Assembly: GCF_003600895.1 (NCBI RefSeq)
Contig: NZ_QYRP01000002.1
Span: 1,364,001-1,428,000 of the forward strand
DNA from: Nocardioides cavernaquae
Lineage (GTDB): Bacteria; Actinomycetota; Actinomycetes; Propionibacteriales; Nocardioidaceae
Reading direction: 5' to 3'
Length of the DNA stretch: 64,000 nucleotides
This document shows positions 34,946 to 53,767 of the stretch, piece after piece. Under the pieces are notes generated by a model. The model saw only the letters and a list, made by a program, of their open reading frames with translations, searched no databases and was not told where the DNA came from. Both the position numbers and the translations under genes were made by a program. Numbering within the stretch: position 1 is the first letter of the stretch; every line of letters starts with the position of its first letter.

Positions 34946-35011
34946 CGCCGAAGGGCCAGGTTTGGCTCGCCGAGAGGCCAGGAATGGCGGCTCGAGGGGC
35001 CAGGAATGGCG
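34946..35011 (+). repeat. Dispersed 66-bp element, copy 1 (three 22-bp units)
   Basis: Three tandem units at 34946-34967, 34968-34989 and 34990-35011. Each starts CGCCGA (third unit GCTCGA), has the core GGCCAGG and ends TTTGGCT or AATGGCG. The array begins 2 nt after the PhzE-type stop and ends 8 nt before the -10 box of the next gene. Confidence 0.88.
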
Positions 35012-35019
35012 CCAAGCAC

Positions 35020-35025
35020 TAGCGT
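35020..35025 (+). promoter_or_regulatory. -10 hexamer TAGCGT, leaderless promoter for the pabA-like gene
   Basis: TAGCGT lies 6 nt before the GTG at 35032. It suggests the PabAB pair is transcribed separately from the PhzE-type gene. Confidence 0.5.
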
Positions 35026-35031
35026 GGCGCC

Positions 35032-35610
35032 GTGAGCAGCCCGGGTCCGCGTGTCGTGGTGGTGGACCACTACGACTCCTACACCTGGAACCTGGTGCAC
35101 CTGATCGCCTCGGTGACCGGTGTCCTGCCGGACGTGGTCGAGCACGACACTGTCGCGCTCGCCGACCTCGCGGCGTACACGCACGTGGTGTTGTCGCCCG
35201 GTCCCGGCACGCCCGACGACCCGGCCGACTTCGCCATCGGACGGGAGCTGCTGCTGGCGGGGGACCGTCCCGTGCTCGGGGTCTGCCTCGGGATGCAGGG
35301 CCTGGTCACGGCGTACGGCGGGGTGGTCGAGCGCGTCGAGCCCGCCCACGGCGAGCTGGCGTCGGTGACCCATGACGGGACCGGGCTCTTCGCCGGTGTG
35401 CCGGACCGCTTCGCGGCGGTCCGCTATCACTCGCTCGCGGCCGTGACGCTGCCCGCGGTGCTCCGCCGCACGGCTGTCGACGAGCTCTCGGGAGTGACGA
35501 TGGCGGTGGCGCACGAAACCCTGCCGCTGGTGGGTGTGCAGTTCCACCCGGAGTCGATCCTCTCCGAGCATGGCGCCGCGATCGTGGCGAACTTCCTGGT
35601 GCTGACGTGA
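35032..35610 (+). CDS. pabA: Aminodeoxychorismate synthase glutamine amidotransferase component (PabA-like)
   Basis: 192 residues. Class I glutamine amidotransferase: VVVVDHYDSYTWNLVHLI opening, VVLSPGPGTPDD, nucleophile Cys in GVCLGMQGLVTAYGG (about residue 84), RYHSLAAV, and the His-Glu pair in GVQFHPESILSEHG (about 172). It supplies ammonia to the PabB-like partner, whose GTG start overlaps this gene's TGA by 4 nt. Could also serve anthranilate synthase, as some PabA proteins are shared. Confidence 0.9.
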   Translation: MSSPGPRVVVVDHYDSYTWNLVHLIASVTGVLPDVVEHDTVALADLAAYTHVVLSPGPGTPDDPADFAIGRELLLAGDRPVLGVCLGMQGLVTAYGGVVERVEPAHGELASVTHDGTGLFAGVPDRFAAVRYHSLAAVTLPAVLRRTAVDELSGVTMAVAHETLPLVGVQFHPESILSEHGAAIVANFLVLT

Positions 35611-36854
35611 CCGATCCGGTGCCCTTCTTCACCGACGTCGCGGCCACCCACGACCGCTGCTTCTGGCTCGACGGCGGCGGCTCACGCCCCTGGTCCGGGC
35701 ACCGCTCGATCGTCGGCTGGCTGGACGAGTCCGATGTGTCGCTGACCTACAAGAGCGCGGAGCAGGCGGTCTATCGGACCGCGGACGGCGGGACCGAGTG
35801 GGTTGGAACGGACGTCTTCGACGTGCTCGCCGCGGAGATGGCGGGAGACGGTCCGGATGTCCACTGGGTCGGCTACCTCGGCTACGCCTGCCGATCGGAC
35901 CTGCCGGCGCGCCCCTCGGACGGCCTTCCTGACGCAGTCTGGATGCGGACCCGCAACGTCCGGATCTTCGACCACGACCCGGAGGTGACGGAGCGCCATC
36001 TCGGCACACCAAAGCTGACCTCTCGGCACACCAAACCTGACCTCTCGGCGCCGGAGGCCTATCAGCAGGCGTTCGAGAAAGTCCAGGAGGAGCTGCACCT
36101 GGGCAACTCCTACGAGGTCAACCTGACCTACCGGACGAAGGTCGAGAGCGACCTTGACCCGGTCAGCGCCTATCTGCGTCTGCGCGAGCTCAACCCCGCG
36201 CCGTACGCCGGGTTCCTGCAGCACCAGGGCACCTGGCTGCTGAGCTCGAGCCCCGAGCGCTACGCCGTGATCGACCGTCACCGGACCATCGAGACCAAGC
36301 CGATCAAGGGCACGACCCCACGCGGCAGCACTCCCGAGGACGACGCCCGGCTCCGTGAGCAACTCGCGACCGACCCGAAGTTCCGCGCCGAGAACCTGAT
36401 GATCGTCGACCTGCTCCGCAACGACCTCGGCATGGTCTGCGAGGCCGGTTCCGTCGAGGTGCCGGTGCTCATGGACGTCGAGTCCTATCCGTCCGTGCAC
36501 CAGCTCGTGTCCACTGTCAGGGGGCGGCTCCGGCCCGAGGTGAGCACCATCGACGCGCTGCGCGCGATCTTCCCCGCCGGGTCGATGACGGGGGCACCCA
36601 AGCTCCGGACGATGCAGATCATCGACGCCGTCGAGGCGACCCCGCGAGGCGTCTACTCCGGGGCGTTCGGCTGGATCTCCGGCGATGGCCGGGCGGACCT
36701 GGGGGTCGTCATCCGGTCCTTGATGACGACCGGTGACGGCACCTGGACCCTCGGCACCGGCGGCGGCATCACGGTCCGCTCCGACTGCGCCGAGGAGTAC
36801 GCCGAGTCGCGGTGGAAGGCGGACCGGCTGCTGCACGTGCTGGCGCCCGGTTGA
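35607..36854 (+). CDS. pabB: Aminodeoxychorismate synthase component I (PabB-like), with in-frame repeat insertion
   Basis: 415 residues. C-terminal MST domain with NSYEVNLTYRTKVE, YAGFLQHQGTWLLSSSPER, the PabB-type TKPIKGTTPRG (Lys of PIKGT is the active-site nucleophile), ENLMIVDLLRNDLGMVCEAGSVEVP, VHQLVSTVRGRL, FPAGSMTGAPKLRTMQIID and GGGITVRSD. Predicted to make 4-amino-4-deoxychorismate with the PabA-like protein for folate. Residues about 127-148 (35985-36050) are encoded by a copy of the dispersed 22-bp repeat, giving LGTPKLTSRHTKPDLSA just before the catalytic domain. The frame is kept, and the insertion falls in a linker between the N-terminal and catalytic parts. Confidence 0.9.
   Translation: MTDPVPFFTDVAATHDRCFWLDGGGSRPWSGHRSIVGWLDESDVSLTYKSAEQAVYRTADGGTEWVGTDVFDVLAAEMAGDGPDVHWVGYLGYACRSDLPARPSDGLPDAVWMRTRNVRIFDHDPEVTERHLGTPKLTSRHTKPDLSAPEAYQQAFEKVQEELHLGNSYEVNLTYRTKVESDLDPVSAYLRLRELNPAPYAGFLQHQGTWLLSSSPERYAVIDRHRTIETKPIKGTTPRGSTPEDDARLREQLATDPKFRAENLMIVDLLRNDLGMVCEAGSVEVPVLMDVESYPSVHQLVSTVRGRLRPEVSTIDALRAIFPAGSMTGAPKLRTMQIIDAVEATPRGVYSGAFGWISGDGRADLGVVIRSLMTTGDGTWTLGTGGGITVRSDCAEEYAESRWKADRLLHVLAPG
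35985..36050 (-). repeat. Dispersed 66-bp element, copy 2, inside the pabB-like gene
   Basis: Reverse orientation. Two clear 22-bp units at 36007-36028 and 36029-36050 (CACCAAA.CTGACC..CTCGGC on the + strand). The stretch 35985-36006 keeps only the unit's end (TCTCGGCA), so it is either a decayed third unit or the insertion edge. Confidence 0.8.
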
Positions 36855-36916
36855 GTTGAGTGCGCCGCATGTGGCGGATGCAGCCACCTGTGCGCTCGAC
36901 TCGCGGATCAGGCAGC

Positions 36917-38293
36917 TCAGTCCGGGCTGACCTTGCCGGGCAGGCGGAGCGTGAAGAGCGCGCCACCGGACGACCCACGGGCCGCCTCGATGCGCCCGGA
37001 GTGCCTCACGGCGATCTGGCGGACGATGGAGAGCCCGAGGCCGGAGCCCGGCATCGACCGGGACTCCCGCGAGCGGTAGAACCGGTCGAACACGTGGGGC
37101 AGGTCCTCAGCCGCGATGCCAGGGCCTTCGTCCTCGACGCGCAGCAGCCCGCCCGACAGGGTGACTGTCACGGTGCCCCCGATCGGGCTCCACTTGGCGG
37201 CGTTGTCGAGCACGTTGAGCACCGCGCGCTCGAGGGCGTTGGCCTCGCCCGTGACCCACCACGGGTCGACGTCGAGCCTGAAGGTGACCTCGGGCGCCCG
37301 TCGCCGGACCCGCACCACCGCACGCTCCACGACCTCGGCGAGGTCGACCGGTTCGACGACATGGGTCAGCTCCTCCTCGCGGGCCAGCTCGACCAGGTCG
37401 CCGATCAGCGTGGTCAGCTCCTCGATCTGCGCCTCTACGTCGTCGAGCAACTCGCGGCGTGCCCCCGGGGGCATCGTGCCGGAGTCACCTGCGTCGATCT
37501 GCGCCAGCAGGTCGAGGTTCGTGCGGAGCGAGGTGAGCGGCGTACGCAGCTCGTGGCCGGCGTCGGCCACCAGCTGGCGCTGGCGGTCGCGGGACGCCGC
37601 GAGCGCGGTGAGCATCTGGTTGAACGCCGTCGCGAGACGCGCGATCTCGTCGTTGCCGCCGACCTCGATCGGGCGCAGGTCCTCGGTGCGGGCGATCTCC
37701 TCGGCGGCCAGCGTCAGCTTGCGGACCGGCCGGAGCCCGTTGCGTGCGACAGCCCAGCCGGCCAGGCCGGCGCCGATGACGCCGGCACCACCCAGCAGCA
37801 GCATGACCAGGCCGAGTCGCTTGAGCACGCTCTCCTGCGGGCTCAGCGACTGCACCAGGACGATCGCGCGGCCATCGGCACCGAGGGTCGGCCAGCTGGC
37901 GGCGCGGAACCGGTCGCCGCCGTGGGTGATCGTGCGGACCTCGCTGTCGCGATCGCCGCCCGCGACCTCGAACTCCTCCGCGCCGAACGCGGGCGATCCG
38001 GCGCGGTCCGCGGAGTAGACGATGCCGTCCTCGGTCACCAGGTAGAGACGCACGTCGGAGGCGCCGAGCAACCAGCTGGGCACGCGGTAGTCCGTGCCGC
38101 GCACCTCGGCTTCCTGCACGGTCGCGGCGACGGCCTTGGCGCGTTCGAGGAGTGAGGAGTCGAGCGTGCGCTGCATCTGCATGCGCACCGTGACGAAGGC
38201 ACCCAGGGCGACGAACGCGACGGCGACACCGACGGCGATCGTCGTGAGCAGCGTGACGCGGCTGGCCAGGCTCCGGCGATAGTGCATCTTCAC
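36917..38293 (-). CDS. Sensor histidine kinase, MprB-like
   Basis: 458 residues. Membrane helix at about 12-34, an extracytoplasmic sensor loop of about 120 residues, second helix at about 160-182, HAMP (RNGLRPVRKLTLAAEEIART), HisKA with phospho-His in DAGHELRTPLTSLRTNLDLL (about 257), then HATPase N box NVLDNAAKWSP, G1 VEDEGPGIAAEDLPHVFDRFYRS and G2 GSGLGLSIVRQI. Overall like MprB of mycobacteria, which senses envelope stress; that ligand role is inferred. GTG 38293 has AAGG 5 nt upstream; ATG 38287 is possible. Downstream of and cotranscribed with its response regulator (10-nt gap). Confidence 0.92.
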   Translation of the reverse strand: MKMHYRRSLASRVTLLTTIAVGVAVAFVALGAFVTVRMQMQRTLDSSLLERAKAVAATVQEAEVRGTDYRVPSWLLGASDVRLYLVTEDGIVYSADRAGSPAFGAEEFEVAGGDRDSEVRTITHGGDRFRAASWPTLGADGRAIVLVQSLSPQESVLKRLGLVMLLLGGAGVIGAGLAGWAVARNGLRPVRKLTLAAEEIARTEDLRPIEVGGNDEIARLATAFNQMLTALAASRDRQRQLVADAGHELRTPLTSLRTNLDLLAQIDAGDSGTMPPGARRELLDDVEAQIEELTTLIGDLVELAREEELTHVVEPVDLAEVVERAVVRVRRRAPEVTFRLDVDPWWVTGEANALERAVLNVLDNAAKWSPIGGTVTVTLSGGLLRVEDEGPGIAAEDLPHVFDRFYRSRESRSMPGSGLGLSIVRQIAVRHSGRIEAARGSSGGALFTLRLPGKVSPD

Positions 38294-38303
38294 TGGCCCC
38301 TTC

Positions 38304-39014
38304 TCAAGGGCTTTCGCGGAGCACGTATCCCACGCCGCGGACGGTGTGGATCAGCCGCTGCTCACCTTCGGCCTCGGTCTTGCGACGCAGGTAGCCGACG
38401 TAGACCTCCAGGGAGTTGGCCGTCGTCGGGAAGTCGTAGCCCCACACCTCTTCGAGGATGAAGCTGCGCTCGAGCACGCGGCGCGGTCGGCGCAGGAACA
38501 TCTCCAGGAGCGTGAACTCGGTGCGGGTCAGCTCCATCGCGCGGTCGCCGCGCTTCACCTCGCGCGACGCGAGATCCATGGTCAGGTCGGCGAACCCGAG
38601 GGTCTCGTCCATGCCGTCCTCATGGGGTACGACGCGGCGGAGCAACGCCCGCAGCCGGGCCAGCAGCTCCTGCAGGGCGAAGGGCTTGGTCAGGTAGTCG
38701 TCGGCCCCGGCGTCCAGCCCGTCAACCCGGTCGCCCACGGCGTCGCGCGCGGTGAGCACCAGGATCGGGACGTCGTGACCGGCCGACCGGAGCGCCTTGG
38801 TCGTCTCGATCCCGTCGAGCCGCGGCATCATCACGTCCATCACCACGACGTCCGGGTTCACCTTGCCGAAGCCGGCCAGCGCCTCGGCGCCGTCGGTGGC
38901 CAGGGAGACGGCGTACCCGTTGAACTCGAGGGACCGTCGCAGCGACTCACGCACTGCCCGGTCGTCGTCGACGACGAGCACGTGGGGGCGCGGAACGGAC
39001 GAGGAGTTGGGCAC
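38304..39014 (-). CDS. Response regulator, OmpR/PhoB type (MprA-like)
   Basis: 236 residues. Receiver domain: [18 protein letters not shown] (acidic pair), phospho-Asp in [15 protein letters not shown] (about residue 61), VLTARD, and Lys in [24 protein letters not shown]-terminal winged helix ends [46 protein letters not shown]. Start GTG 39014 follows a -10-like CAGAGT (39021-39026) by 6 nt; the frame is open further upstream but that part does not resemble a response regulator. Pairs with the adjacent histidine kinase. Confidence 0.93.
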
Positions 39015-39058
39015 GGGGCAACTCTGCCACCGACGCCTGAAACCCGGCTGAGAGACGA

Positions 39059-39124
39059 CGCCATACCTGACGGCTCGGCACACCAAACCTGACGGCTCGG
39101 CACACCAAACCTGGCCTTTCGGCG
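39059..39124 (-). repeat. Dispersed 66-bp element, copy 3
   Basis: Reverse orientation, three 22-bp units at 39059-39080, 39081-39102 and 39103-39124 (CACCAAACCTGACGGCTCGG type). It fills much of the gap between the response-regulator start and the 3' end of the kinase-like gene, stopping 2 nt before its stop codon complement at 39127. Confidence 0.9.
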
Positions 39125-39126
39125 GA

Positions 39127-39981
39127 TCAGGTGAGGTCGTCGGCGATGCGCGCGGCGCGGGCGGCGTACCCACCGCCGAACATGCACGCGTGCACCAGCA
39201 GGGGGAACAGCTGGTGGATGCCGACGCGGTCCTCCCAGCCGTCGGCGAGCGGCGTGACCTCGGAGTACGCCGCGAGGACGCGCGGCAGCTGTGGCAGTCC
39301 GAAGAGGGAGAGCATGGCGAGGTCGGTCTCGCGGTGGCCGGCGTGGACCGCCGGATCGAGCAGGTACGCCGTGTGGTCGAGGCCCCACAGGACGTTGCCG
39401 TTCCACAGGTCACCGTGGAGCAGGGCGGGCGGTTCCTCAGGCACGAGGGAGCCCAGGCGCGGGAAGAGCTCCTCGATCGTGCCGGCGTCGTCGGGGTCGA
39501 TGCGGCCACGGTCGACGCCGAGCCGGAGGTAGGGCTCGAGGCGGCGGGTCGCATAGAACTCCGCCCAGGTCGGGGCGGGAGCGTTGGGGAGCGGCAGCCG
39601 GCCGATGAACCCGTCCTGGTCCGCGCCGAACGCCGGCTCCTCCACCGCGTGCAGGGCGGCGAGCGCGCGGCCGAGCTGCTCGGCCATCTCCACGATGACC
39701 TTGCCCGGCTCGAGCCAGGGCAACACCAGGCAGTCCTCGTCGACGGCGAGCACGGCGGGGACCGGAGCGCCGGCCGCGGCGAGGGTGCGCAGCCCGTGGG
39801 CCTCGGCCGGGAAGAACCCGGGCGGAGGGGAGGGCTGGCTCTTCAGCAGCACGTTGCGGCCGTCGGAGAGCCGCAGCCGGGTGGCGGTGTTGATGTCCCC
39901 GCCCGCGACCGGCGCCGTCGAGACCACCGCTGCCCCGAGCAGCTGCTCGGCACGGCGGGCGATCGCGGACTGGCGGGTCAT
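39127..39981 (-). CDS. Fructosamine kinase-family protein
   Basis: 284 residues. APH/ChoK-type kinase fold: [25 protein letters not shown] (nucleotide loop and Lys), [20 protein letters not shown], catalytic loop [13 protein letters not shown] (about residue 192), and the metal-binding [18 protein letters not shown]. This set is typical of fructosamine/ketosamine-3-kinases that repair glycated proteins. Its ATG overlaps the stop of the phosphatase gene by 4 nt (ATGA), so the two are translated together; both act on covalently modified proteins. Confidence 0.9.
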
Positions 39982-40508
39982 GACAACCGGTGCCCCACGT
40001 CGGGCTGAGCCATCGCCTCGAGGTCGGTCACGATGCCGTCCGCGGTCCGCTCGATCATGACCAGCACGTCGGTGAACCCGGCCGGGCCGCCGTAGAACGG
40101 GTCGGGCACGTCCCCACCTGTCGGCCCATCGGGCTCCGGGTCCCACGAGCGGAACAGCCAGAGCCGCTCGTGTGGGACGCCCAGCGAGCCGAGCTGGCTG
40201 AAGTGGCCGGCGTCCATCGCGAGCACCAGGTCGTAGTCGGAGGCCACCCCCGGGCCGAACTGCCGCGCGCGGTGCCGACTGCCGTCGTACCCCGCGGCGA
40301 TGAGGGACGACCCCGAGCGGTGGTCGATGCCCTCGCCGACGTGCCAGCCGCCCGTGCCGAAGCTGTCGACGGTGATGCCCGGGAGCCCGGCCTCGGCGAT
40401 CTTGTCGTTGAGCACGACGTCGGCGACCGGGGACCGGCAGATGTTGCCCGAGCAGACCACCGCGATGCGGTAGCCCTCGCCTCGCGGAGCCGGCAGCTGG
40501 GCGGTCAT
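39978..40508 (-). CDS. Low-molecular-weight protein tyrosine phosphatase
   Basis: 176 residues. P-loop AVVCSGNICRSPVADVVL with the CX5R signature (Cys19, Arg25) near the N-terminus, and the general-acid Asp in VPDPFYGG. SGTGGWHVGEGIDHRS and DYDLVLAMDAGHF are also family blocks. Dephosphorylates phosphotyrosine or phosphoarginine in other bacteria; substrate here unknown. The start at 40508 overlaps the stop of the PF04020-type gene by 1 nt; the stop overlaps the kinase start. Middle gene of a three-gene operon. Confidence 0.92.
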   Translation of the reverse strand: MTAQLPAPRGEGYRIAVVCSGNICRSPVADVVLNDKIAEAGLPGITVDSFGTGGWHVGEGIDHRSGSSLIAAGYDGSRHRARQFGPGVASDYDLVLAMDAGHFSQLGSLGVPHERLWLFRSWDPEPDGPTGGDVPDPFYGGPAGFTDVLVMIERTADGIVTDLEAMAQPDVGHRLS

Positions 40509-40882
40509 CAGTCGTCCTCGATCGCGACCATGTCGATGAAGCCGGTGACGAGGGTGACGATCACGCTGCCGACCAGTGCGGCCCAGAAGCCGTCGACCGT
40601 GAAGCCGACATCGGCCTTGCCCGCGATCCACGAGGTCAGCATCAGCATCAGCGCGTTGATCACCAGCAGGAAGAGGCCGATGGTCACGATGATGAAGGGG
40701 AGCGAGAGCAGCTTGACCACCGGCTTGACCGAGATCGAGACCAGGCCGAGGATCACGGCAGCGCCAGCGAGCGGCAGGAGCTTGTCCTGCCAGGTCGCCC
40801 CGTCGAGGTGGATGCCGTCGAGCAGCCACGCAGCGACCGCCAGGCCAGCCATCGTGGTGAGGATCCAGAGGAGCAGCTTCAC
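40508..40882 (-). CDS. Phage-holin-family (PF04020-type) membrane protein
   Basis: 124 residues with four predicted helices: KLLLWILTTMAGLAVAAWLL, KLLPLAGAAVILGLVSI, LPFIIVTIGLFLLVINALMLMLTSWI and WAALVGSVIVTLVTGFI. The VKPVVKLLSLPFIIVTIGLFLLVINA stretch is the hallmark of the PF04020 family (YvlD-like). These are chromosomal proteins of unknown role, not phage lysis proteins. GTG 40882 is chosen because TAGGGT lies 7 nt upstream; a GTG at 40891 overlaps the -10 box itself. Confidence 0.87.
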   Translation of the reverse strand: MKLLLWILTTMAGLAVAAWLLDGIHLDGATWQDKLLPLAGAAVILGLVSISVKPVVKLLSLPFIIVTIGLFLLVINALMLMLTSWIAGKADVGFTVDGFWAALVGSVIVTLVTGFIDMVAIEDD

Positions 40883-40889
40883 GACTGCC

Positions 40890-40895
40890 ACCCTA
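40890..40895 (-). promoter_or_regulatory. -10 hexamer TAGGGT, leaderless promoter for the three-gene operon
   Basis: On the minus strand TAGGGT lies 7 nt before GTG 40882 and includes the base of an alternative GTG, which decides the start of the membrane-protein gene. Confidence 0.5.
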
Positions 40896-40918
40896 GGCGG
40901 GTGGGGGATGGACCGGAA

Positions 40919-40950
40919 CCCGCGCCGGTACGGGGGACAACCAGCGCGGG
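40919..40950 (-). terminator. Hairpin after the LPQTG surface-protein gene
   Basis: Arms CCCGCGC (40919-40925) and GCGCGGG (40944-40950), 18 nt downstream of the stop at 40968. GC-rich, no T-run. Confidence 0.4.
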
Positions 40951-40967
40951 CCCAGCCAACTCGTGGA

Positions 40968-45768: not shown

Positions 45769-46707
45769 ATGGGACACGGACACGGGCACGGCCAGGCGCA
45801 GGGTCACGGCGAGGGTCGTGCGGCGGACCGCCGCCGGCTGGTGCTCGTGCTCCTGGTGTCCGTCGCGGTCATCGCGGTCGAGCTGGTCGGCGCCTGGCTC
45901 ACCGGCTCGCTCGCGCTGGCGGCCGATGCCGGACACGTCGCGTCAGATGCTGTCGGGGTTGCGCTCGCGCTCGGTGCGTCGTACGCCGCGATGCGGCCGC
46001 CGACCGCTCGGCGTACGTTCGGGTTGCACCGCGCGGAGGTGCTCGCGGCCCTGGCGAATGCCGTCGTCATGCTCGGTCTCTCCGCCTGGCTGCTCTGGAC
46101 CGCGATCGGCCGACTGCGCGACCCGGTGTCCGTCGATGCCGGACCGCTGGTGGTCTTCGCCCTCGTGGGCCTGCTGGCCAACGTCGTCGCGCTGGCCATC
46201 CTGACGCGCGGCGACACCTCGGCGCTCCACATGCGGAGCGCGCTCCTGGAGGTCCTGGGCGACGCGGTCGGTTCGGCCCTCGTCGTCGTGTCGGGCATCG
46301 TGATCCTGCTGACCGACTTCCACCGCGCCGACGCCATCGCCTCGATCCTGATCGCCGTGCTCATCGCGCCTCGCGCCCTGCTGCTCCTCCGCGACACCGT
46401 GCTCGTGCTGCTCGAGGCGACCCCGGCGGGTCTGGACCTCGAGAAGGTCCGTGGCGGGCTGGTGACGATCGATGGTGTGGTCGGGGTCCATGACCTCCAC
46501 GCGTGGACGATCACCAGCGGCATGCTCAGCCTGTCGGCGCACGTCACCGTGGCTGACGACGTGCTCGCGTCGCGGGGTGTCGGCGCGGTCCTCGACGATC
46601 TCGCCGACAGGGTGGCGACCGACCACGGCATCCGGCACGCGACGTTCCAGGTCGAGCCCGCCTCACACCGAGAGCACGAGGACCTGGGCGAGACCGGCTG
46701 CGGCTGA
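45769..46707 (+). CDS. Cation diffusion facilitator (CDF) family metal transporter
   Basis: 312 residues. A His-rich N-terminus (MGHGHGHGQAQGHGEG) precedes six helices. Transport-site motif in TM2 is DAGHVASDAVG (HxxxD); the TM5 counterpart reads ALLEVLGDAVGSAL, with Glu where zinc CDFs usually have His. The C-terminal cytoplasmic ferredoxin-like domain is present (VRGGLVTIDGVVGVHDLHAWTITSGMLSLSAHVTV). Likely exports zinc or another divalent cation in exchange for protons; the Glu may alter metal choice. Confidence 0.92.
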   Translation: MGHGHGHGQAQGHGEGRAADRRRLVLVLLVSVAVIAVELVGAWLTGSLALAADAGHVASDAVGVALALGASYAAMRPPTARRTFGLHRAEVLAALANAVVMLGLSAWLLWTAIGRLRDPVSVDAGPLVVFALVGLLANVVALAILTRGDTSALHMRSALLEVLGDAVGSALVVVSGIVILLTDFHRADAIASILIAVLIAPRALLLLRDTVLVLLEATPAGLDLEKVRGGLVTIDGVVGVHDLHAWTITSGMLSLSAHVTVADDVLASRGVGAVLDDLADRVATDHGIRHATFQVEPASHREHEDLGETGCG

Positions 46708-46828
46708 CGCCGTCCGCCGGGCGGCGTACCTTCACGCGACGTTCCGTGTCGCGTCACCGTCACGTGGTCCCTGCCCGAGAGGCTCGCGCGCACATCCGTG
46801 CCCGTTCCCCCGAGCGAAGGACGCCTCC

Positions 46829-48610
46829 TTGCACACCTCTCTCCGCGCAGCCCTCGTGGCCGTCGCCCTGCTCCCGATCGCGTCGGTGCTCTCGCCGGCC
46901 AATGCTGCGGTCCCGCCCGGTGCGGAACTCGTGAAGGTCAACGAGGTCGAGTCCAGCGGCGGCACGCCGGGTGACTGGATCGAGCTCCACAACACCGGCA
47001 CCGCAACGATCGACCTGTCCGGCTTCCGGCTCAAGGACAGCGCGAAGAGCAGCAACTACACGATCCCCTCGGGCACCACGATCGCCGCCGGCGCGTACCG
47101 CGTCTTCGACGAGTCGGTGTTCGGCTTCGGTCTGGGCGCGAGCGACCAGGCGCGCCTCTTCGCGCCGGACGGCACGAGCCTGGTCGACTCCACCAGCTGG
47201 AGCTCGCACGCATCCGTGACCTGGGGTCGTTGCCCCAACGGCACGGGCGCCTTCGCCACCACGCTCGCGTCGACCAAGGGCGCGGCGAACTCCTGTTCGA
47301 CGCCCGTCAACGTGAAGATCAACGAGGTCGAGTCCAACGGCGGTACGCCGGGTGACTGGGTCGAGATCATCAACAACGGATCGACGACCGCCGACCTGAG
47401 CGGCTACGTCTTCAAGGACGACGCGAACTCGTGGACGCTCCCCTCCGGCTCGACCGTGGTGGCTGGCGGCTATCGCGTGATCGAGGAGGCGCAGTTCGGC
47501 TTCGGCCTGGGAGCCCCCGAGTCCGCGAAGCTCTACCAGCCGGGCGGCTCGATCCTCGTCGACAGCACCAGCTGGTCCGCGCACGCGGCCACGACGCTGG
47601 GCCGTTGCCCCAACGGCACCGGAGCGTTCGAGGCGACCGCCGCCGCGACCAAGGCCGCCGCCAACTCCTGCTCGGCTCCGCTGCAGACCCAGGCCTGGCC
47701 TGGCTCGTCGAGCGCCTCCACGGTCGATCCGGCCAACGCGCTCGGCACCAACATGAGCGGCCTGGCCTACGAGGGCTCCGGCTCCTCGGCAGTCCTGTGG
47801 GCCGCCAAGAACGGCGTCGGCACGCTGCACCGTCTGACCTTCAACGGCACCAACTGGGCGCCGTCGACCGGCTGGACCTCGGGCAAGGTGCTGCACTACC
47901 CGAGCGGCACCGGTGACGTCGACGCAGAGGGCGTGACCTTCGCCAACGGATCAGCCAGCGGCGTCTACGTGGCGGCTGAGCGCGACAACGGCAACAGCAG
48001 CGTCAGCCGCAACAGCATCCTGAGCTTCGACGTGTCCGGCTCGGGCTCGTCGCTCAACGCCACCCGCGAGTGGAACCTCACCAGCCTGATCCCGGCCACC
48101 TCGGCCAACACCGGCTTCGAGGCGGTCTCCTTCATCCCCAACGCGGCGCTGGTTGCCAAGGGCTTCGTCGACGCCACCACGGGCGCCGTCTACGACCCCG
48201 CGTCGTACGCCGACCACGCCGGTGGCCTCTTCTTCGCAGGTGTCGAGCAGACCGGTGACATCCACGCGTTCGCGCTCAACCACACGACCGGCACGGCGAC
48301 GAAGGTCGCCACCATCGACAGCCCGTTCATCGGTGTCATGGACCTGTCGTTCGACACCCAGACCGGCAAGCTCTGGGCCGCGTGCGACGACAACTGCACC
48401 GGCCGCAGCGCGGTCCTGGACGTCAACGCCTCGGGTGCCTTCGCGGCCGAGGTCATCAACGAGCGCCCGACCGGCATGGCCAACCTCAACAACGAGGGCT
48501 TCACCCTCGCCCCCGCCGCGGACTGCGTCGCGGGCAGCAAGCCGGTCTTCTGGTCCGACGACTCGAACACCGGTGGCTTCGCGATCCGCAAGGGCTCCAT
48601 CACCTGCTGA
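46829..48610 (+). CDS. Secreted protein with two lamin-tail domains and a C-terminal repeat-propeller-like region
   Basis: 593 residues from TTG 46829 (AAGGA 7 nt upstream). Signal peptide HTSLRAALVAVALLPIASVLSPANA. Two tandem lamin-tail (LTD) domains of about 125 residues start VKVNEVESSGGTPGDWIELH and VKINEVESNGGTPGDWVEII; each ends with GRCPNGTGAF and a Cys. The C-terminal 350 residues (ALGTNMSGLAYEGSGSSAVL.., GFEAVSFIPNAAL, FIGVMDLSFDTQTGKLWAACDDNC, NNEGFTLAP) resemble beta-propellers of the SdiA-regulated or esterase-like phytase kind. LTD domains in bacteria occur in secreted proteins, often linked to nucleases or lipoproteins. No anchor is visible. Confidence 0.82.
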   Translation: MHTSLRAALVAVALLPIASVLSPANAAVPPGAELVKVNEVESSGGTPGDWIELHNTGTATIDLSGFRLKDSAKSSNYTIPSGTTIAAGAYRVFDESVFGFGLGASDQARLFAPDGTSLVDSTSWSSHASVTWGRCPNGTGAFATTLASTKGAANSCSTPVNVKINEVESNGGTPGDWVEIINNGSTTADLSGYVFKDDANSWTLPSGSTVVAGGYRVIEEAQFGFGLGAPESAKLYQPGGSILVDSTSWSAHAATTLGRCPNGTGAFEATAAATKAAANSCSAPLQTQAWPGSSSASTVDPANALGTNMSGLAYEGSGSSAVLWAAKNGVGTLHRLTFNGTNWAPSTGWTSGKVLHYPSGTGDVDAEGVTFANGSASGVYVAAERDNGNSSVSRNSILSFDVSGSGSSLNATREWNLTSLIPATSANTGFEAVSFIPNAALVAKGFVDATTGAVYDPASYADHAGGLFFAGVEQTGDIHAFALNHTTGTATKVATIDSPFIGVMDLSFDTQTGKLWAACDDNCTGRSAVLDVNASGAFAAEVINERPTGMANLNNEGFTLAPAADCVAGSKPVFWSDDSNTGGFAIRKGSITC

Positions 48611-48635
48611 CAGTCCGACCACCTGCGACACCGGT

Positions 48636-48673
48636 GGGGCCCGGCACGCCGTACGTCCGGCGAGTCGGGCCCC
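48636..48673 (+). terminator. Hairpin after the lamin-tail protein gene
   Basis: Arms GGGGCCCG (48636-48643) and CGGGCCCC (48666-48673) with an inner GCCG/CGGC pairing, 26 nt after the stop. Downstream sequence GTTGTCGTCG is only mildly T-rich. Confidence 0.55.
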
Positions 48674-48760
48674 GTTGTCGTCGCTGATGGTCGTGGCTCT
48701 GGTCGTGGCTCGAGGCGCACATTGAGGCGCGGCTGACTCCCGATCGTGACCGCGGACCGG

Positions 48761-48766
48761 TAGCGT
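48761..48766 (+). promoter_or_regulatory. Likely -10 box TAGCGT of the BCKDH operon
   Basis: TAGCGT is the commonest -10 sequence in this window. Here it lies 84 nt before the ATG at 48851, predicting a leader of about 78 nt; a GAGGAG ribosome binding site precedes the ATG. Confidence 0.35.
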
Positions 48767-48850
48767 GGAGTGACGCGGCCCACACACCCCCGTGGTTCCG
48801 CACCACCACCGCACCGGCAATCCCGTGGCGGCATAGCGAGGAGACGGCTG

Positions 48851-49969
48851 ATGTCGGATCTGATCCAGCTGCTCACCCCCGAGGGCGAGCGCGTCGAGCA
48901 CCCCGAGTTTCGTTTCGACCCCGGTCCGGGAGTCGACGAGGCAGAGATGATCCGGGGCCTGCTCCGCGACATGGTTCTCTGTCGTCGGCTCGACACCGAG
49001 GCCACGGCACTGCAGCGGCACGGCGAGCTCGGCATCTGGGCCCCGTTGCTCGGTCAGGAGGCTGCCCAGGTCGGCGCCGGCCGGGCACTGCGCAAGCAGG
49101 ACCATGTGTTCCCGACCTACCGCGAGCACGGGGTCGCGTGGTGCCGCGGCATCGACCCGCTCGACATGTTGAGCACCTGGCGCGGCACCGACCACGGCGG
49201 CTGGGACCCGGTCGCGACCGGCTTCCACCTCTACACGATCGTGATCGGCGCGCAGACCCTGCACGCCACGGGCTATGCCATGGGCGTCCAGCGCGACGGC
49301 CTCGTCGGCACCGGCGACCCGGACCGCGACACCGCGGTGATCGCTCACTTCGGTGACGGCGCTTCGTCGCAGGGTGACGTCAACGAGGCCTTCGTCTTCG
49401 CGGCGTCCTACAACTCACCGGTCGTCTTCTTCTGCCAGAACAACCAGTGGGCGATCTCGGAGCCGATGGAGCGACAGTCCCGCATCCCGCTCTTCAAGCG
49501 GGCCCAGGGCTTCGGCTTCCCGGGTTACCAGGTCGACGGCAACGACGTCCTCGCGACGTACGCCGTGGCGCAGGCCGCGCTCCAGCGGGCCCGTGACGGC
49601 GAGGGTCCGACCCTGGTCGAGGCCTACACCTACCGGATGGGCGCCCACACGACCACCGACGACCCGACGCGCTACCGGCTCAGCGAGGACGTCGAGCACT
49701 GGAAGCTGAAGGACCCGATCGCGCGCGTCGAGGCCTACCTCCGCCGCAACGGCCTGGTCTCCGACGAGTGGTTCGCGGAGCTCGAGGCCGAGGCGGACGC
49801 GCTCGGAGTCCGGATGCGCGAGGGCTGCCATGCGCTGCCTGACCCCTCGCCGCTCTCGCCGTTCAACGAGGCCTATGCCGAGATCACGCCGGAGCTGGAG
49901 ACGCAGCGCGACGAGTTCGCGGCGTACCTCTCCGGTCTCCAGGGCGCCGCGCCGGAGGTGACCCGATGA
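48851..49969 (+). CDS. bkdA: Branched-chain 2-oxoacid (or pyruvate) dehydrogenase E1 alpha
   Basis: 372 residues. Thiamine-diphosphate enzyme: GELGIWAPLLGQEAAQVGAGRAL, FPTYREHGVAWCRGIDP, the TPP-binding motif HFGDGASSQGDVNEAF to NNQWAIS, and TYRMGAHTTTDDPTRYR with the phosphorylation-loop region of branched-chain E1 proteins. Forms an alpha2beta2 E1 with the next gene and decarboxylates the 2-oxoacid. First gene of E1a-E1b-E2; no E3 gene is present, so a shared lipoamide dehydrogenase is expected. Branched-chain specificity is inferred from the GHTxxDDP block and the operon type. Confidence 0.9.
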   Translation: MSDLIQLLTPEGERVEHPEFRFDPGPGVDEAEMIRGLLRDMVLCRRLDTEATALQRHGELGIWAPLLGQEAAQVGAGRALRKQDHVFPTYREHGVAWCRGIDPLDMLSTWRGTDHGGWDPVATGFHLYTIVIGAQTLHATGYAMGVQRDGLVGTGDPDRDTAVIAHFGDGASSQGDVNEAFVFAASYNSPVVFFCQNNQWAISEPMERQSRIPLFKRAQGFGFPGYQVDGNDVLATYAVAQAALQRARDGEGPTLVEAYTYRMGAHTTTDDPTRYRLSEDVEHWKLKDPIARVEAYLRRNGLVSDEWFAELEAEADALGVRMREGCHALPDPSPLSPFNEAYAEITPELETQRDEFAAYLSGLQGAAPEVTR

Positions 49970-50943
49970 GCACCGTGACCCTGGCGAAGGCGCTCAACCT
50001 CGGCCTGCGCCGCGCGATGGAGGAGGACCCGAAGGTGCTGGTGATGGGCGAGGACGTCGGCCGGCTCGGCGGCGTCTTCCGGATCACCGACGGGCTCCAG
50101 AAGGACTTCGGCGAGGACCGGGTCATCGACACCCCTCTCGCCGAGTCGGGCATCGTCGGCACTGCGGTCGGTCTGGCGCTGCGTGGCTACCGGCCGGTGG
50201 TGGAGATCCAGTTCGACGGGTTCGTCTACCCGGCCTACGACCAGATCGTGTGCCAGGTCGCGAAGATGCACTCCCGCTCGCGGGGGCGGCTGCGGTTGCC
50301 GATCGTCATCCGGATCCCGTTCGGCGGCGGCATCGGCGCGGTCGAGCACCACAGCGAGTCACCGGAGGCTCAGTTCGCGCACACGCCCGGGCTCAAGGTG
50401 GTGGCCTGCTCCAACCCGGTCGACGGCTACTGGATGCTCCAGCAGGCCATCGCCCACGATGACCCGGTGGTCTTCCTGGAGCCCAAGCGGCAGTACCACT
50501 CCGGCAAGGCGGAGCTTGATGCCGCCGTGGGCCCCGGGCCGCTCTTCGCCTCGCGGGTGGCTCGCGCCGGCGGCGACGTGACGCTGCTCTGCTACGGCCC
50601 GACGGTGAAGACCTGCCTGGCCGCCGCAGATGCCGCCGCCACCGAGGGGCGCTCGCTCGAGGTCATCGACCTGCGCACGCTCTCGCCGCTCGACATGGAC
50701 CCCGTCCTCGACTCCGTACGCCGCACCGGCCGCGCCGTCGTGGTCCACGAGGCGCACATGAACCTCGGCATGGGCTCCGAGATCGCGGCCCGGATCACCG
50801 AGAAGTGCTTCTACTCGCTCGAGGCGCCGGTGCTGCGTGTCGGCGGCTTCGACACCCCCTATCCGTCAGCCCGCATCGAGCACGAGTGGCTCCCTGACGT
50901 CGACCGTGTGCTCGACGCGGTCGACCGGGTTCTGGGGTTCTGA
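49966..50943 (+). CDS. bkdB: Branched-chain 2-oxoacid (or pyruvate) dehydrogenase E1 beta
   Basis: 325 residues, full length. Transketolase pyrimidine-binding domain: TLAKALNLGLRRAMEEDPKVLVMGEDVGRLGGVFRITDGL, DTPLAESGIVGTAVGLALRGYRPVVEIQF, LPIVIRIPFGGGIGAVEHHSESPEAQFAHTPGLKVV, and a C-terminal transketolase domain (VTLLCYGPTVKTCLAA, LEVIDLRTLSPLD, HEAHMNLGMGSEIAARI). ATG overlaps the E1 alpha stop by 4 nt and its own stop overlaps the E2 start by 1 nt. Confidence 0.93.
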   Translation: MSTVTLAKALNLGLRRAMEEDPKVLVMGEDVGRLGGVFRITDGLQKDFGEDRVIDTPLAESGIVGTAVGLALRGYRPVVEIQFDGFVYPAYDQIVCQVAKMHSRSRGRLRLPIVIRIPFGGGIGAVEHHSESPEAQFAHTPGLKVVACSNPVDGYWMLQQAIAHDDPVVFLEPKRQYHSGKAELDAAVGPGPLFASRVARAGGDVTLLCYGPTVKTCLAAADAAATEGRSLEVIDLRTLSPLDMDPVLDSVRRTGRAVVVHEAHMNLGMGSEIAARITEKCFYSLEAPVLRVGGFDTPYPSARIEHEWLPDVDRVLDAVDRVLGF

Positions 50944-52265
50944 TGGCTGAGTACCGCCTGCCCGACCCGGGCGAGGGTCTGACCGAGGCCGAGATCGTCG
51001 CCTGGCACGTGGCCGTGGGTGATGTGATCGCGGTCAACGACCCGGTCGTCGACATCGAGACCGCCAAGTCGATCGTCGAGCTGCCCTCGCCCTATGCCGG
51101 CACCGTCGAGGCGCTGCTGGTCGCCGTGGGGGAGACCGTCGAGGTCGGCACGCCGATCCTGCGGGTGACCACCGCCGACGACGTGGCGCCCGTTGTCGAC
51201 GAGGAGGCGGCAGAGGGTCCCGCCACGCTGGTCGGCTACGGCCCGCGCGATCGCGCGTCTCGCCGGCGCTCGTCCGCCAGCGAAAAGCCGAGGACTTCTG
51301 GTCAGCAGGTGACGAAAAGTCTTCACACTGATGGGGCCGCCCTCGCCAACCCCTCCGTCCAGGTGGCTGTCGGAAGCCAGCGCCCGCTGGCCAAGCCGCC
51401 GGTGCGGTTGCTGGCCCGTGAGCTCGGGGTCGACCTGAACGCGGTCGCGCACGCCGGCCCGGTGATCACCCGGGCGGATGTCGAGGCAGCCACCCAGCCA
51501 GCTGCCCCTGCAGGCCGGGCGACACCGGCACCGACCGAGCTGCCTCCGCTGCTCGACCGGGAGTACCGCGAACCGGTCAAGGGCGTCCGCAAGGTGATGG
51601 CGCAGGCGATGGTCACCTCGGCGTACTCCGCTCCGCACGTGACCGAGTGGGTCGAGGTGGACGCCACCCGCACGGTCGAGCGCGTGGCCGCGCTGCGCAA
51701 GGACCCGGCGTACGACGGGGTGCGGGTGACGACGACGCTGATCGTGGCGCAGGCCTGTGTCGCCGCGTTGCGCGAGTTTCCCGAGCTCAACGCGCGGTGG
51801 GACGGCGAGGCGGTGACGTTCCGCCGCTACGTGAACCTCGGGATCGCGGCGGCCACGCCGCGCGGGCTGCTTGTGCCCAACATCAAGGACGCGGGCGACC
51901 TCTCCGGGCCGGAGCTGGCGATGGCGCTGGAGCAGCTCACCGCGACTGCACGCGAGGGCAGGACCCAGCCGGCCGAGCAGACCGGCGGCACCTTCACGAT
52001 CACCAATATCGGGGTCTTCGGCATCGACGCGGGTACCCCGATCATCAACCCCGGTGAGTCGGCGATCCTGGCCGTCGGCGCGATCCGCAAGAAGCCGTGG
52101 GTGGTCACGACCGCCGCGGGCGATGACGCACTGGCGATCCGGCACGTGGCGACGCTCGCGCTGAGCTTCGATCACCGGCTGGTCGACGGCGAGAAGGGGT
52201 CACGCTTCCTGGCCTCGATCGCGCGGGCACTCGAAGATCCCGGGAGTGAGGCTCAGAAGTCGTAG
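50943..52265 (+). CDS. bkdC: 2-oxoacid dehydrogenase E2 (dihydrolipoamide acyltransferase)
   Basis: 440 residues. One lipoyl domain (YRLPDPGEGLTEAEIVAWHV; lipoylated Lys in DIETAKSIVELPSP, about residue 42), a linker, the peripheral subunit-binding domain (LAKPPVRLLARELGVDLNAV, about 140-175) and the catalytic domain ending SFDHRLVDGEKG (His-x-x-x-Asp-Gly, about 408). The linker region SEKPRTSGQQVTKSLHTDG is encoded by a small DNA hairpin element (51281-51324) unlike the surrounding Ala/Pro-type linkers. The last 13 nt overlap the 3' end of the convergent AccD3-like gene. Confidence 0.93.
   Translation: MAEYRLPDPGEGLTEAEIVAWHVAVGDVIAVNDPVVDIETAKSIVELPSPYAGTVEALLVAVGETVEVGTPILRVTTADDVAPVVDEEAAEGPATLVGYGPRDRASRRRSSASEKPRTSGQQVTKSLHTDGAALANPSVQVAVGSQRPLAKPPVRLLARELGVDLNAVAHAGPVITRADVEAATQPAAPAGRATPAPTELPPLLDREYREPVKGVRKVMAQAMVTSAYSAPHVTEWVEVDATRTVERVAALRKDPAYDGVRVTTTLIVAQACVAALREFPELNARWDGEAVTFRRYVNLGIAAATPRGLLVPNIKDAGDLSGPELAMALEQLTATAREGRTQPAEQTGGTFTITNIGVFGIDAGTPIINPGESAILAVGAIRKKPWVVTTAAGDDALAIRHVATLALSFDHRLVDGEKGSRFLASIARALEDPGSEAQKS
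51281..51324. repeat. Small inverted-repeat element inside the E2 linker
   Basis: GAGGACTTCTGGTC (51290-51303) and GACGAAAAGTCTTC (51311-51324) pair at 11 of 14 positions around a 7-nt loop, and CGAAAAG occurs twice (51281, 51313). It is AT-rich compared with its surroundings and lies in the flexible linker, which looks like an inserted palindromic element kept in frame. Confidence 0.55.
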
Positions 52266-53767
52266 CGGGCGGCGCGCTGGGCCGGCGTCCCCGGCCCGGC
52301 GATCCGCAACGCGGCGAGCTCGCCGGCGATGACGTCTGCCAGCCGGACCGAGAAGGTGTCGGGCTCGTCGGCGGCGTCGGGTAGCTCCGGGACGATGACG
52401 TCGACGACGCCGCGCTCGTGGAGCTGCAGCGCGAGCACCTGCTGCGATCGCGCCAGGTCGGCGGCCCGCTCGGTGGTCCGGTGGACGATCGCGCTCGCCC
52501 CTTCGGGCGGCAGCGGCGACAGCCAGGCGTGCTGGGCGGCGAGGATGCGGTCGGCGGGGAGGAACGCGAGCGCGCCTCCTCCGTTGCCCTCGCCGAGCAG
52601 GACCGAGAGCGTGGGCGCGCCGCAGGCGACGAGCTCGGAGAGGCAGCGGGCGATCTCGCCGGCGACCGCACCTTCCTCGGCGTCGACCGAAAGCTCAGCG
52701 CCACGGGTGTCGATCACGGTGACGACCGGAATGCGCAGCTCGGCCGCCAGCGCGAACCCGCGCCGCGCGACCCGGAGCCCGGCCGGCCCGAGCTTCTCGC
52801 CGGCCGCCTCGGCCGCGCGGTCCTGGCCCACGACCACACACGGCTGGCCGCCGAACCGGGCCAGCGCGAGGGCGATCGTCGCGTCGGTCTCGCCGGCCTG
52901 CGTGCCGTTGAGGAGTACGACGTCGGACGCCGCCGCGAGCAGCTCGCACACACCGGGCCGGTCCTCACGGCGTGTGCGCGTGACCGCCTCCCACGCGTCC
53001 ACCCCGCCGAAAGGTCGGGTCTGGTCCGCCGAAGGGTCAACTCTGGCGCGTCGAGAGGTCAAGTCCGGCGCGGCGGTCCCTGTCGGAAGCGCGTCAACCG
53101 TCAGCGCGCGCAGCGTGGTGCCGAGCAGCTCGCGCAGGTCGGAGGGCTCGACAGCTCCGTCGATGACACCGATGTCGGCGAGGTGCTCGGCCAGCTGGAT
53201 GCCGGACGGGAAGTCCTGGCCATGCATCGCGGAGTAGACCCGCGGGCCGAGGAAGCCGACCAGGGCACCGGGCTCGGCGAAGACGATCTGCCCCAGTGCG
53301 CCCCACGAGGCCATCACGCCACCCGTGGTCGGGTGGCGCAGGTAGGCCACATAGGCGAGGCCCGCCGCGCGGTGTGCGGTGATGGCGGCTCCGATGCGGA
53401 CCATCTGCACGAAGGCGGGGGTGCCCTCCTGCATGCGGGTGCCGCCACTGCAGGTCAGGCCGACCAGCGGCAGTCCTTCCGCGGTCGCGTGCTCGACGGC
53501 GGCGACGAGGCGGTCGGCGGCGGCCCGGCCGATCGAGCCGGCCAAGAAGCCGAACTCGCCTGCGATGAGCGCTACCGGGCGCCCCTCGATCGTGGCCCTG
53601 CCGGTGAGGACGGACTCGTCGACGCCGGACTTCTCCGCTGCGGCGGCCAGCTCCGCGGCGTACTCCTCGGAGATCTCGCTCCGGACGACGGCCGTGTCCC
53701 ACGAGGTCCAGGAACCGTCGTCGACGAGGCTCGCGATCAGTTCGGAGGCGGAGAGGCGGTCAGACAC
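52253..53767 (-). CDS. Fused acyl-CoA carboxylase carboxyltransferase (AccD3-like), with in-frame repeat insertion
   Basis: 504 residues, close to the 495 of mycobacterial AccD3. N-terminal beta-like half: GRATIEGRPVALIAGEFGFLAGSIGRAAADRLVAAVEHA, LPLVGLTCSGGTRMQEG, TTGGVMASWGALGQIVFAEPGALVGFLGPRV. C-terminal alpha-like half: RFGGQPCVVVGQDRA, GFALAAELRIPVVTVIDTRGAELS, LVACGAPTLSVLLGEGNGGGALAFLPADRI. The N-terminal zinc ribbon of bacterial AccD is absent. Residues 233-254 are encoded by a copy of the dispersed 66-bp element (53005-53070), at the junction of the two halves. TAGGGT lies 6 nt before GTG 53767. Substrate unknown. Confidence 0.87.
   Translation of the reverse strand: MSDRLSASELIASLVDDGSWTSWDTAVVRSEISEEYAAELAAAAEKSGVDESVLTGRATIEGRPVALIAGEFGFLAGSIGRAAADRLVAAVEHATAEGLPLVGLTCSGGTRMQEGTPAFVQMVRIGAAITAHRAAGLAYVAYLRHPTTGGVMASWGALGQIVFAEPGALVGFLGPRVYSAMHGQDFPSGIQLAEHLADIGVIDGAVEPSDLRELLGTTLRALTVDALPTGTAAPDLTSRRARVDPSADQTRPFGGVDAWEAVTRTRREDRPGVCELLAAASDVVLLNGTQAGETDATIALALARFGGQPCVVVGQDRAAEAAGEKLGPAGLRVARRGFALAAELRIPVVTVIDTRGAELSVDAEEGAVAGEIARCLSELVACGAPTLSVLLGEGNGGGALAFLPADRILAAQHAWLSPLPPEGASAIVHRTTERAADLARSQQVLALQLHERGVVDVIVPELPDAADEPDTFSVRLADVIAGELAALRIAGPGTPAQRAARYDF
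53005..53070 (+). repeat. Dispersed 66-bp element, copy 4, inside the AccD3-like gene
   Basis: Three tandem 22-bp units at 53005-53026, 53027-53048 and 53049-53070, each starting CGCCGA or CGTCGA with core GGTC and ending CTGGTC, CTGGCG or CCGGCG. Encodes 22 codons on the minus strand (DLTSRRARVDPSADQTRPFG) at the domain junction. Confidence 0.88.

Follow-up and report, generated by a model that had tools for sequence, protein, structure and literature searches.

The window, i.e., the whole 64,000-nucleotide stretch of Nocardioides cavernaquae DNA analysed here, carries four arrays of 22-bp units among its host genes (Table 1). A preliminary description had reported four such arrays, and all were found with the positions, strands, and unit make-up that it gave; a 21-mer of the unit, searched with up to three mismatches, yielded 4 matches in the window and 0 in 100 shuffles. 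Two arrays adjoin gene ends and two lie inside genes, as had been claimed, and both gene-end arrays have their 5′ boundary 2 nt past a stop, which for array 1 is that of the upstream chorismate-binding/GATase gene. Array 2 is in frame and antisense within the pabB-like gene, and 995 bp separate the scored arrays 1 and 2.

Table 1. Arrays of 22-bp units and neighbouring host genes in the window.
Feature	Positions	Strand	Remarks
Host gene, Chorismate_bind + GATase fusion (644 aa)	33009..34943	+	
Array 1	34946..35011	+	three 22-bp units; left arm of inward-facing pair
Inward-facing array pair	34946..36050	.	spans pabA-like gene and start of pabB
Host gene, GATase (pabA-like)	35056..35610	+	alternative start 35032
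Host gene, Chorismate_bind (pabB-like)	35607..36854	+	array 2 in its variable linker
Array 2	35985..36050	-	two clear units (36007-36050) and decayed third; right arm, paired with array 1
Host gene, response regulator	38304..39014	-	downstream of array 3
Array 3	39059..39124	-	three units; 5′ boundary 2 nt past fructosamine-kinase gene stop
Host gene, fructosamine kinase	39127..39981	-	upstream of array 3
Host gene, carboxyltransferase	52253..53767	-	array 4 inside
Array 4	53005..53070	+	three units; linker of carboxyltransferase (accD-like) gene, in frame, antisense

Number, phasing, and placement of the arrays

The search of the full genome proposed in the preliminary description revealed many more copies. 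Across the genome, the 21-mer (≤3 mismatches) matched 59 times and a reversed-pattern control 0 times; at E≤0.1, a profile built from 36 arrays gave 68 matches, of which long arrays accounted for several each. By chaining matches in the fetched regions, 57 arrays with 179 units were obtained for the 3.47-Mb genome, 25 on the + strand and 32 on the − strand; three profile places (1196092, 2099997, and 469917; E 0.001–0.03) fell below the chaining threshold and lie outside this count. Three units per array, presented earlier as the exact number, is the commonest (31/57) but not the sole one, as 2 arrays have one unit, 9 have two, 14 have four, and 1 has ten. Further copies and periodic spacing, the two points on which the idea of a defined element had been staked, were both found, and the repeat arrays are confirmed as real and more extensive than the window shows.

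The genome's own unit is asymmetric and starts CGCCGA. In this genome, where units were gathered without any spacing rule, 109 of 110 steps measure 22 bp; over five species sets the figure is 331/336, with the unit tables of the other species built from arrays found under a 22-bp rule, so that off-phase arrays are under-counted there. Adjacent units here agree at about 16.6–16.8 of 22 positions (~5 differ), compared with 15.4 for random units. The arrays are also polar. In the relative J54, the consensus match falls clearly from the outside inward (19.5, 18.3, 17.9, 17.1, and 15.3 of 22), whereas the gradient in this genome is weaker, the first two units being equal (18.0, 18.1, 16.9, and 15.8). 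The strongest mutual information within this genome's units links adjacent positions, 8–9 and 16–17.

Neutral, satellite-like repeats generated by tandem copying, with neither binding nor mobility, would fit the slight excess likeness of adjacent units (16.6 vs. 15.4) and the ten-unit array, which contains a run of identical units and thus indicates that tandem expansion does happen. This explanation is already disfavoured and appears very improbable: the spacing is almost unchanged against ~5 substitutions per step, the arrays pair inward and conserve their outer units, and the skeleton of the unit is common to other species.

Twenty-one of the 57 arrays begin ≤12 nt after a same-strand stop. 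Convergent junctions hold 16 of this genome's 43 intergenic arrays and, in relatives, 28 of 50 sites; in twelve control stretches from this genome, used as background, 31 of 213 junctions are convergent. Fourteen arrays lie inside called genes, 8 antisense and 6 sense, and those between co-directional genes divide into 11 sense and 11 antisense by our count; a link of orientation to replication was rejected, 24/57 arrays being co-oriented with the fork. More than 1.1 Mb from dnaA, sites are scarce, though not absent (4 of 44 vs. 16.0 expected, P=4e-5, for a cut-off picked after seeing the data and a distribution from one genome only). A lower number of convergent junctions far from dnaA was rejected for the sampled stretches (16 vs. 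15 per 114 kb).

Many arrays begin ~2 nt past a stop, in sense, as would be expected of an RNA element of 3′ UTRs, i.e., hairpin repeats past the stop that serve as transcription terminators or shield the end of the mRNA. The 4-bp dyad GYCA-N4-TGGY is compatible with a weak hairpin and its variation with G-U pairs, the place of a J54 element is taken in one relative by a hairpin resembling an intrinsic terminator, and strong hairpins occur in 1/16 array-bearing convergent gaps here vs. 12/67 array-free ones (all lengths). However, 8/14 in-gene arrays and 11/22 of those between co-directional genes are antisense, hairpins followed by T runs are found in 1/16 array-bearing and 1/67 array-free gaps here, and strong hairpins in the relatives show no difference (5/29 vs. 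7/47). Base-pair covariation is not clear: the predicted consensus fold has 11 pairs, one of which is changed on both sides, in 3 of 36 sequences. The arms of paired arrays are not mutually complementary beyond the consensus. Rfam gave no match in three loci. Such a 3′ UTR element is unlikely, and the RNA-processing element suggested in the preliminary description is weakly supported at best.

Inward-facing pairs and the question of mobility

Close array neighbours in this genome (n=14) comprise 11 inward, 3 tandem, and 0 outward pairs, and none of 5000 shuffles of orientation gave as many inward pairs. The paired arms are 0.2–2.3 kb apart, mostly with host genes between them; 35/57 arrays belong to no close inward pair. 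Applied to the named relatives, our rule gave 15 tightly spaced inward pairs (gaps 1–120 bp) and no outward pair; by this rule, 42/57 sites in relatives show one arm only, some with a decayed second arm. We take the complete element to consist of two inward-facing arrays with the best unit outermost, many arrays being single.

A hairpin or palindrome kept through arm-to-arm pairing is unsupported. In J54, the likeness between the two arms of an element (16.2, 8 pairs) does not exceed that between arms taken from different elements (16.7); thus, arm-to-arm pairing is not the conserved property. An origin of pairs by local inverted duplication was rejected: only 911796/913291 among 12 comparisons exceeds random-array likeness. 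The idea that a pair delimits a gene cassette or composite transposon was rejected because the enclosed genes examined are host genes (mshD, dapF, CobN/CobG, and CobC/CobB, with the CobG assignment just below its cut-off) and pabA lies directly beside pabB. This adjacency recurs in 28 of 29 relatives; the locus of the remaining one gave no match for pabA.

The same design was matched in 13 of 214 other Nocardioides congeners, in 5 of the 13 by one imperfect match only. The species have the skeleton CGA-N3-GYCR-N4-TGGY in common and their own letters at the remaining positions; the J54 unit happens to start CGTC. The pabB and cobN linkers of relatives are filled by other sequences, some of them repeats, and the cobN linker here exceeds the short forms, but other sequence occupies it in some relatives. 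The array-bearing accD linker is longer than in 12 relatives' loci by 8–14 aa, not 22. Where J54 has one of its elements, with 251 bp between the flanks matched, the relative G002 has 91 bp that include a terminator-like hairpin; the flanks are 0.8–1.3 kb apart in six other relatives, one relative matched one flank only, and a clean empty site was not reached in this comparison (209 genomes, 61 of them without a score). The GTCTCGATAC repeat of relatives was uninformative, occurring 0 times in this genome's stretches and 0 times in the relatives' loci too.

These observations bear on a purely selfish REP/MITE-like element without host function, in which the units would be sites of a transposase, lost or located elsewhere, with the outermost the strongest. 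The arm architecture agrees with this, as it does with MITE/DDE transposon ends: several 22-bp sites, inverted arms, and the outer site best, with the weaker gradient here than in J54. So do the other repeats in the pabB and cobN linkers of some relatives and an IS3-family transposase enclosed by one MAG array pair; the latter insertion sequence has its own ends and therefore more likely landed within the element. Against it, the Y1 family PF01797 (REP-associated, GTAG family) had 0 genome matches at E≤0.001, controls being positive in 5/14. A search for rve gave two places, one insertion sequence, which was rejected as the array source since its 2,010-bp copies carry other, unrelated ends, from which the units are absent. 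No mobility enzyme linked to the arrays was thus found in these two families. Searches for an array source in phages and viral contigs gave no match, and in plasmids five weak Clavibacter matches. No target-site duplication was seen by eye in the flanks of tight J54 pairs, and the genes enclosed here are host genes (mshD, dapF, cobN/cobG, and pabA). On balance, a purely selfish element is possible but doubtful. The mobile miniature repeat proposed earlier is supported in part: REP-like spread is supported by the 13/214 congeners, species-own units, and linker variation, but no mobility enzyme of the Y1 or rve family accompanies it.

Comparison with known systems

REP/BIME elements are 20–40 bp palindromes tagged GTAG or CGTC (super-families), and the arrays resemble them in being short, dispersed, extragenic, in many copies, and often between convergent genes, with dimers, in-frame intragenic copies, and several families in different species (PMC3733652, PMC1525189). 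Placement at gene ends is likewise shared. The arrays differ in their asymmetric 22-bp units, phased as direct repeats and non-palindromic save for the 4-bp dyad, in a unit that starts CGCCGA without either tag, and in that no Y1 tyrosine transposase was found in the genome (PF01797, E≤0.001).

The ends of Mu and Tn7 contain multiple 22-bp transposase sites and are inverted, with the outermost site most important. The arms described here share several 22-bp sites per arm, inversion, and a strongest outermost site, but have no transposase gene between them and no target duplication was seen; their interior holds host genes here and almost nothing in relatives. In Galileo-type foldback elements, too, the inverted arms are long, contain internal repeats, and carry several transposase binding sites, but these elements are eukaryotic, their arms are longer, and an autonomous coding form exists. 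Mycobacteriophage stoperators have uniform orientation relative to transcription. They are asymmetric sites with many copies across a genome, as here, but serve a phage repressor on phage genomes, whereas the arrays are even in orientation (8 antisense/6 sense in genes, 11/11 between co-directional genes).

The nucleoid-occlusion sites bound by SlmA in E. coli and by Noc in B. subtilis number dozens, are dispersed, and are absent from the terminus (PMC6657595, PMC4331003). The arrays are similarly dispersed in dozens and, in this one genome, scarce rather than absent far from dnaA (4/44 vs. 16.0); the SlmA and Noc sites, however, are separate, palindromic in the case of Noc, and apparently not phased arrays (PMC6657595, PMC4331003). 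A ParB-domain search of the genome returned a single ParB_N protein, adjoining dnaA, and no Noc-like ParB paralogue. A literature search found nothing on this element, nor on such chromosome-organisation sites in Nocardioides.

Putative protein-binding arrays

Of the three options in the preliminary description, an array of binding sites agrees best with the 331/336 phasing, the even orientation, and the dependence between neighbouring bases, although binding itself is inferred. Orientation evenness and the mutual information of adjacent positions fit best with action at the DNA rather than the RNA level, and a phased binding array in DNA is preferred because there is no palindrome, no Y1 transposase was found, and covariation is not clear. 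We therefore favour, at a probability of roughly 0.45, a REP-like dispersed repeat whose arms are polar, phased arrays of putative protein-binding sites acting as a boundary. The 22-bp phase could also stem from a transposase or from array copying, given the slightly greater likeness of adjacent units. Several further observations weigh against this reading, namely the arrays outside close inward pairs here (35/57), the one-armed sites of relatives (42/57), paired arms that lie as much as 2.2 kb apart in this genome, the dyad's compatibility with a weak hairpin, and a ParB-domain search that gave just the dnaA-adjoining protein.

Under the favoured boundary reading, the 66-bp element would be one arm of a repeat present in part of the genus Nocardioides. 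In each arm, a sequence-specific DNA-binding protein would find an asymmetric site every 22 bp (~two helical turns), and the array would be polar, its sites losing strength from the outer (5′) end inward. Two facing arms would form the complete element, with many arms alone, and the element would settle where lengthening the DNA is cheap, i.e., right after stops, between convergent genes, and in protein linkers. Proteins bound side by side on one face may assemble into a filament or bridge two arms, and the complex may serve as a boundary for transcription insulation, supercoil handling, or chromosome anchoring.

A more specific proposal, which we consider distinctly unlikely, is that the arrays serve as chromosomal landmarks for a chromosome-organisation or division-placement system not described before in actinobacteria, in which a protein polymerises on the 22-bp sites and inward arms are bridged. 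Because few sites occur in the chromosome third most distant from dnaA, the complexes would mark the origin-proximal two thirds, and co-evolution of protein and site would give each species its own unit on one skeleton.

The arrays represent a dispersed bacterial repeat of unusual, well-kept architecture, combining near-exact phase, polarity, facing pairs, and species letters on one skeleton. This architecture raises two testable questions, namely what protein recognises an array phased at 22 bp and by what means the repeat spreads with no transposase found. The dnaA-distal gap, if also present in other species, would indicate a role in chromosome organisation in Nocardioides.

Array census and spread among relatives

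All four array positions that the preliminary description gave for the window proved correct (table); the unit with up to three mismatches occurs there four times, against none in 100 shuffles. The same search located further copies beyond the window, with 59 matches genome-wide versus none for the reversed pattern. A sequence profile built from 36 arrays returned 68 matches in the N. cavernaquae genome (E ≤ 0.1). Chained in fetched regions, these gave 57 arrays (runs of 22-bp units) with 179 units, leaving out three profile places below the chaining threshold (1196092, 2099997 and 469917). Copies of exactly three units had been described; this size holds for 31 of the 57 arrays, and the other 26 have one (2 arrays), two (9), four (14) or ten units (1). 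The ten-unit array contains a run of identical units, which is a recent tandem expansion. A unit sub-family of the type CGCCGAGATGTCG...TGGCC (G000:C2 97206, 806686, 1884168, 2099487 and 2679300) scores lower in the profile, and more of its copies may have been missed by detection.

Coordinates of arrays and associated features (G000, N. cavernaquae genome; L numbers, single fetched loci)
Feature	Coordinates	Strand	Setting
Array 1	window 34946-35011	+	
Array 2	window 35985-36050	-	pabB linker
Array 3	window 39059-39124	-	
Array 4	window 53005-53070	+	accD linker
Ten-unit array	L061:5594-5814 (G000:C2:767593-767813)		between response-regulator gene and mshD
Interior of shortest N. cavernaquae inward pair	G000:C2:1883932-1884167		no called gene
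IS3-family insertion sequence	L163:95-1379		between two arms, Nocardioidaceae MAG
rve insertion sequence, copy 1	L117:4031-6040		N. cavernaquae
rve insertion sequence, copy 2	L118:4500-6509		N. cavernaquae

The unit consensus is CGCCGARAGGTCAGGTYTGGYG in N. cavernaquae, CGTCGAGACGTCACTTGTGGCG in Nocardioides sp. J54, CGCCGAAGTGTCAGGGTTGGTC in N. immobilis and GGCCGAGGTGTCACATCTGGTC in N. limicola; the relatives' units share the skeleton CGA-N3-GYCR-N4-TGGY, the other letters being species-specific. A two-unit skeleton pattern (≤1 mismatch) was found in 14 of 215 congeneric genomes, including N. cavernaquae, with five of the 13 others known by one 1-mismatch match only; its reversed control matched once over all 215. 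In GTDB r220 (one genome per species), the stricter exact pattern yielded 69 stretches: 12 Nocardioidaceae or Propionibacteriales genomes account for 63, and the other six, taken as chance, come from other lineages, one per genome. Searching 57 relatives for the N. cavernaquae unit itself gave no more than chance: 12 matches, spread over 9 genomes, versus 23 for the reversed control.

Placement relative to genes

With genes called by custom codon-bias callers, 21/57 arrays begin no more than 12 nt past a same-strand stop, and 23/57 end within 60 nt of an opposite-strand stop, which in 10 of these 23 is supplied by the last unit itself, 12 nt inside the unit. Of the 43 intergenic arrays in N. 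cavernaquae, 16 are at convergent junctions (P=2e-4), as are 28 of the relatives' 50 sites (P=1e-11), against a background of 31/213; only 3/50 of the relatives' sites are at divergent junctions (P=0.15; background 29/213). For both species sets the background is that of twelve control stretches of the N. cavernaquae genome. In convergent gaps that contain an array, the sequence left over outside it has a median length of 9 bp (n=16 gaps). By manual count, the remaining intergenic arrays of N. cavernaquae lie between co-directional genes (11 sense, 11 antisense) or divergent genes (4), with one unclear.

Fourteen arrays lie within called genes (8 antisense, 6 sense), although two of the sense arrays are so close to where their gene is called to begin that its true start may lie downstream of them. 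Because the host genes are open, the unit's antisense TGA is altered in 5/5 units where it is in frame; in the same arrays, 12/16 units that are out of frame keep TCA intact, as do 97/148 units elsewhere. The pabB linker is strongly variable across relatives (L076-L104), with sequences differing by Nocardioides genome, several of them palindromic and repeat-like. The cobN linker, which hosts another N. cavernaquae array, is likewise variable (L245-L257), with other repeats in some relatives; these linkers are thus permissive sites, filled differently by species. In relative G003, the cobN linker (L255) carries in-frame tandem repeats of a SAALDQRGGG-like peptide. The accD linker of N. cavernaquae exceeds those of relatives by 8-14 aa, against an array length of 22 aa, so either the linker had been short before or some of its sequence has gone.

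Pairing and polarity of the arrays

Among neighbouring N. cavernaquae arrays up to 2.7 kb apart (n=14), 11 face inward, with outer units at their 5' ends, three are tandem and none face outward. Eleven inward pairs were never reached by 5000 orientation shuffles (maximum 9), and random array positions (0.09 to 2.26 Mb) gave a mean of 0.93 and a maximum of 6; 35/57 arrays are in no inward pair. The named relatives have 15 tight inward pairs (gap 1-120 bp) and no outward pairs, two self-overlapping palindromes from outside the array family being omitted, and another inward pair with a 1304 bp gap. Under the rule used for tight pairs, 42/57 of their sites have a single arm. Consensus match is best in the outer unit and drops inward, clearly in J54 and more weakly in N. 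cavernaquae, whose first two units match equally well. Arms within one J54 element are no more alike than arms from different elements, and the same holds for N. cavernaquae pair members, one pair excepted. By eye, the interior of the shortest N. cavernaquae pair has a stretch resembling a ribosome-binding site, together with a hairpin and a very short ORF; this could be a leader.

Transposon ends can carry several transposase sites, and the polarity and pairing of the arrays resemble such ends; however, no matching transposase was found in the two families searched (rve and Y1), and no target duplication was seen by eye at tight J54 pairs. The arrays might also be selfish elements with no host function, a reading somewhat less probable than that of protein-binding arrays. 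Their spread, species specificity and placement are similar to those of REP elements, but the 22-bp unit is not palindromic and, unlike for REP elements, no Y1 transposase was found in the N. cavernaquae genome. Insertion sequences observed include an IS3-family element with its own ends and a 2,010-bp rve element in two copies, 99.75% identical (table); REP-targeting IS3 elements are known (PMC1525189).

Phasing and chromosomal distribution

In N. cavernaquae, where units were gathered without a spacing rule, the step from one unit to the next is 22 bp in 109 of 110 cases. The figures for J54 (131/132), N. immobilis (55/55), N. limicola (18/18) and one MAG (18/21) are biased upward because a 22-bp rule was used there. 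Between adjacent units, 16.6-19.4 of the 22 positions are identical. On the chromosome, dnaA, adjoined by a parB-type gene, lies at 1.19 Mb; arrays number 23-28 per Mb up to 0.9 Mb from it, and 4/57 arrays lie beyond 1.1 Mb (4/44 sites versus 16.0 expected, P=4e-5, at a cut-off chosen post hoc with the data already seen). Six control stretches far from dnaA and six closer to it are similar in coding density and convergent junctions. There is no fork-orientation bias (24/57 arrays co-oriented).

A phase kept despite divergence, the even orientation to transcription in N. cavernaquae, and dependence between neighbouring rather than pairing bases favour protein-bound DNA. We put the probability of this reading, arrays of sites for a putative binding protein, at about 45%.
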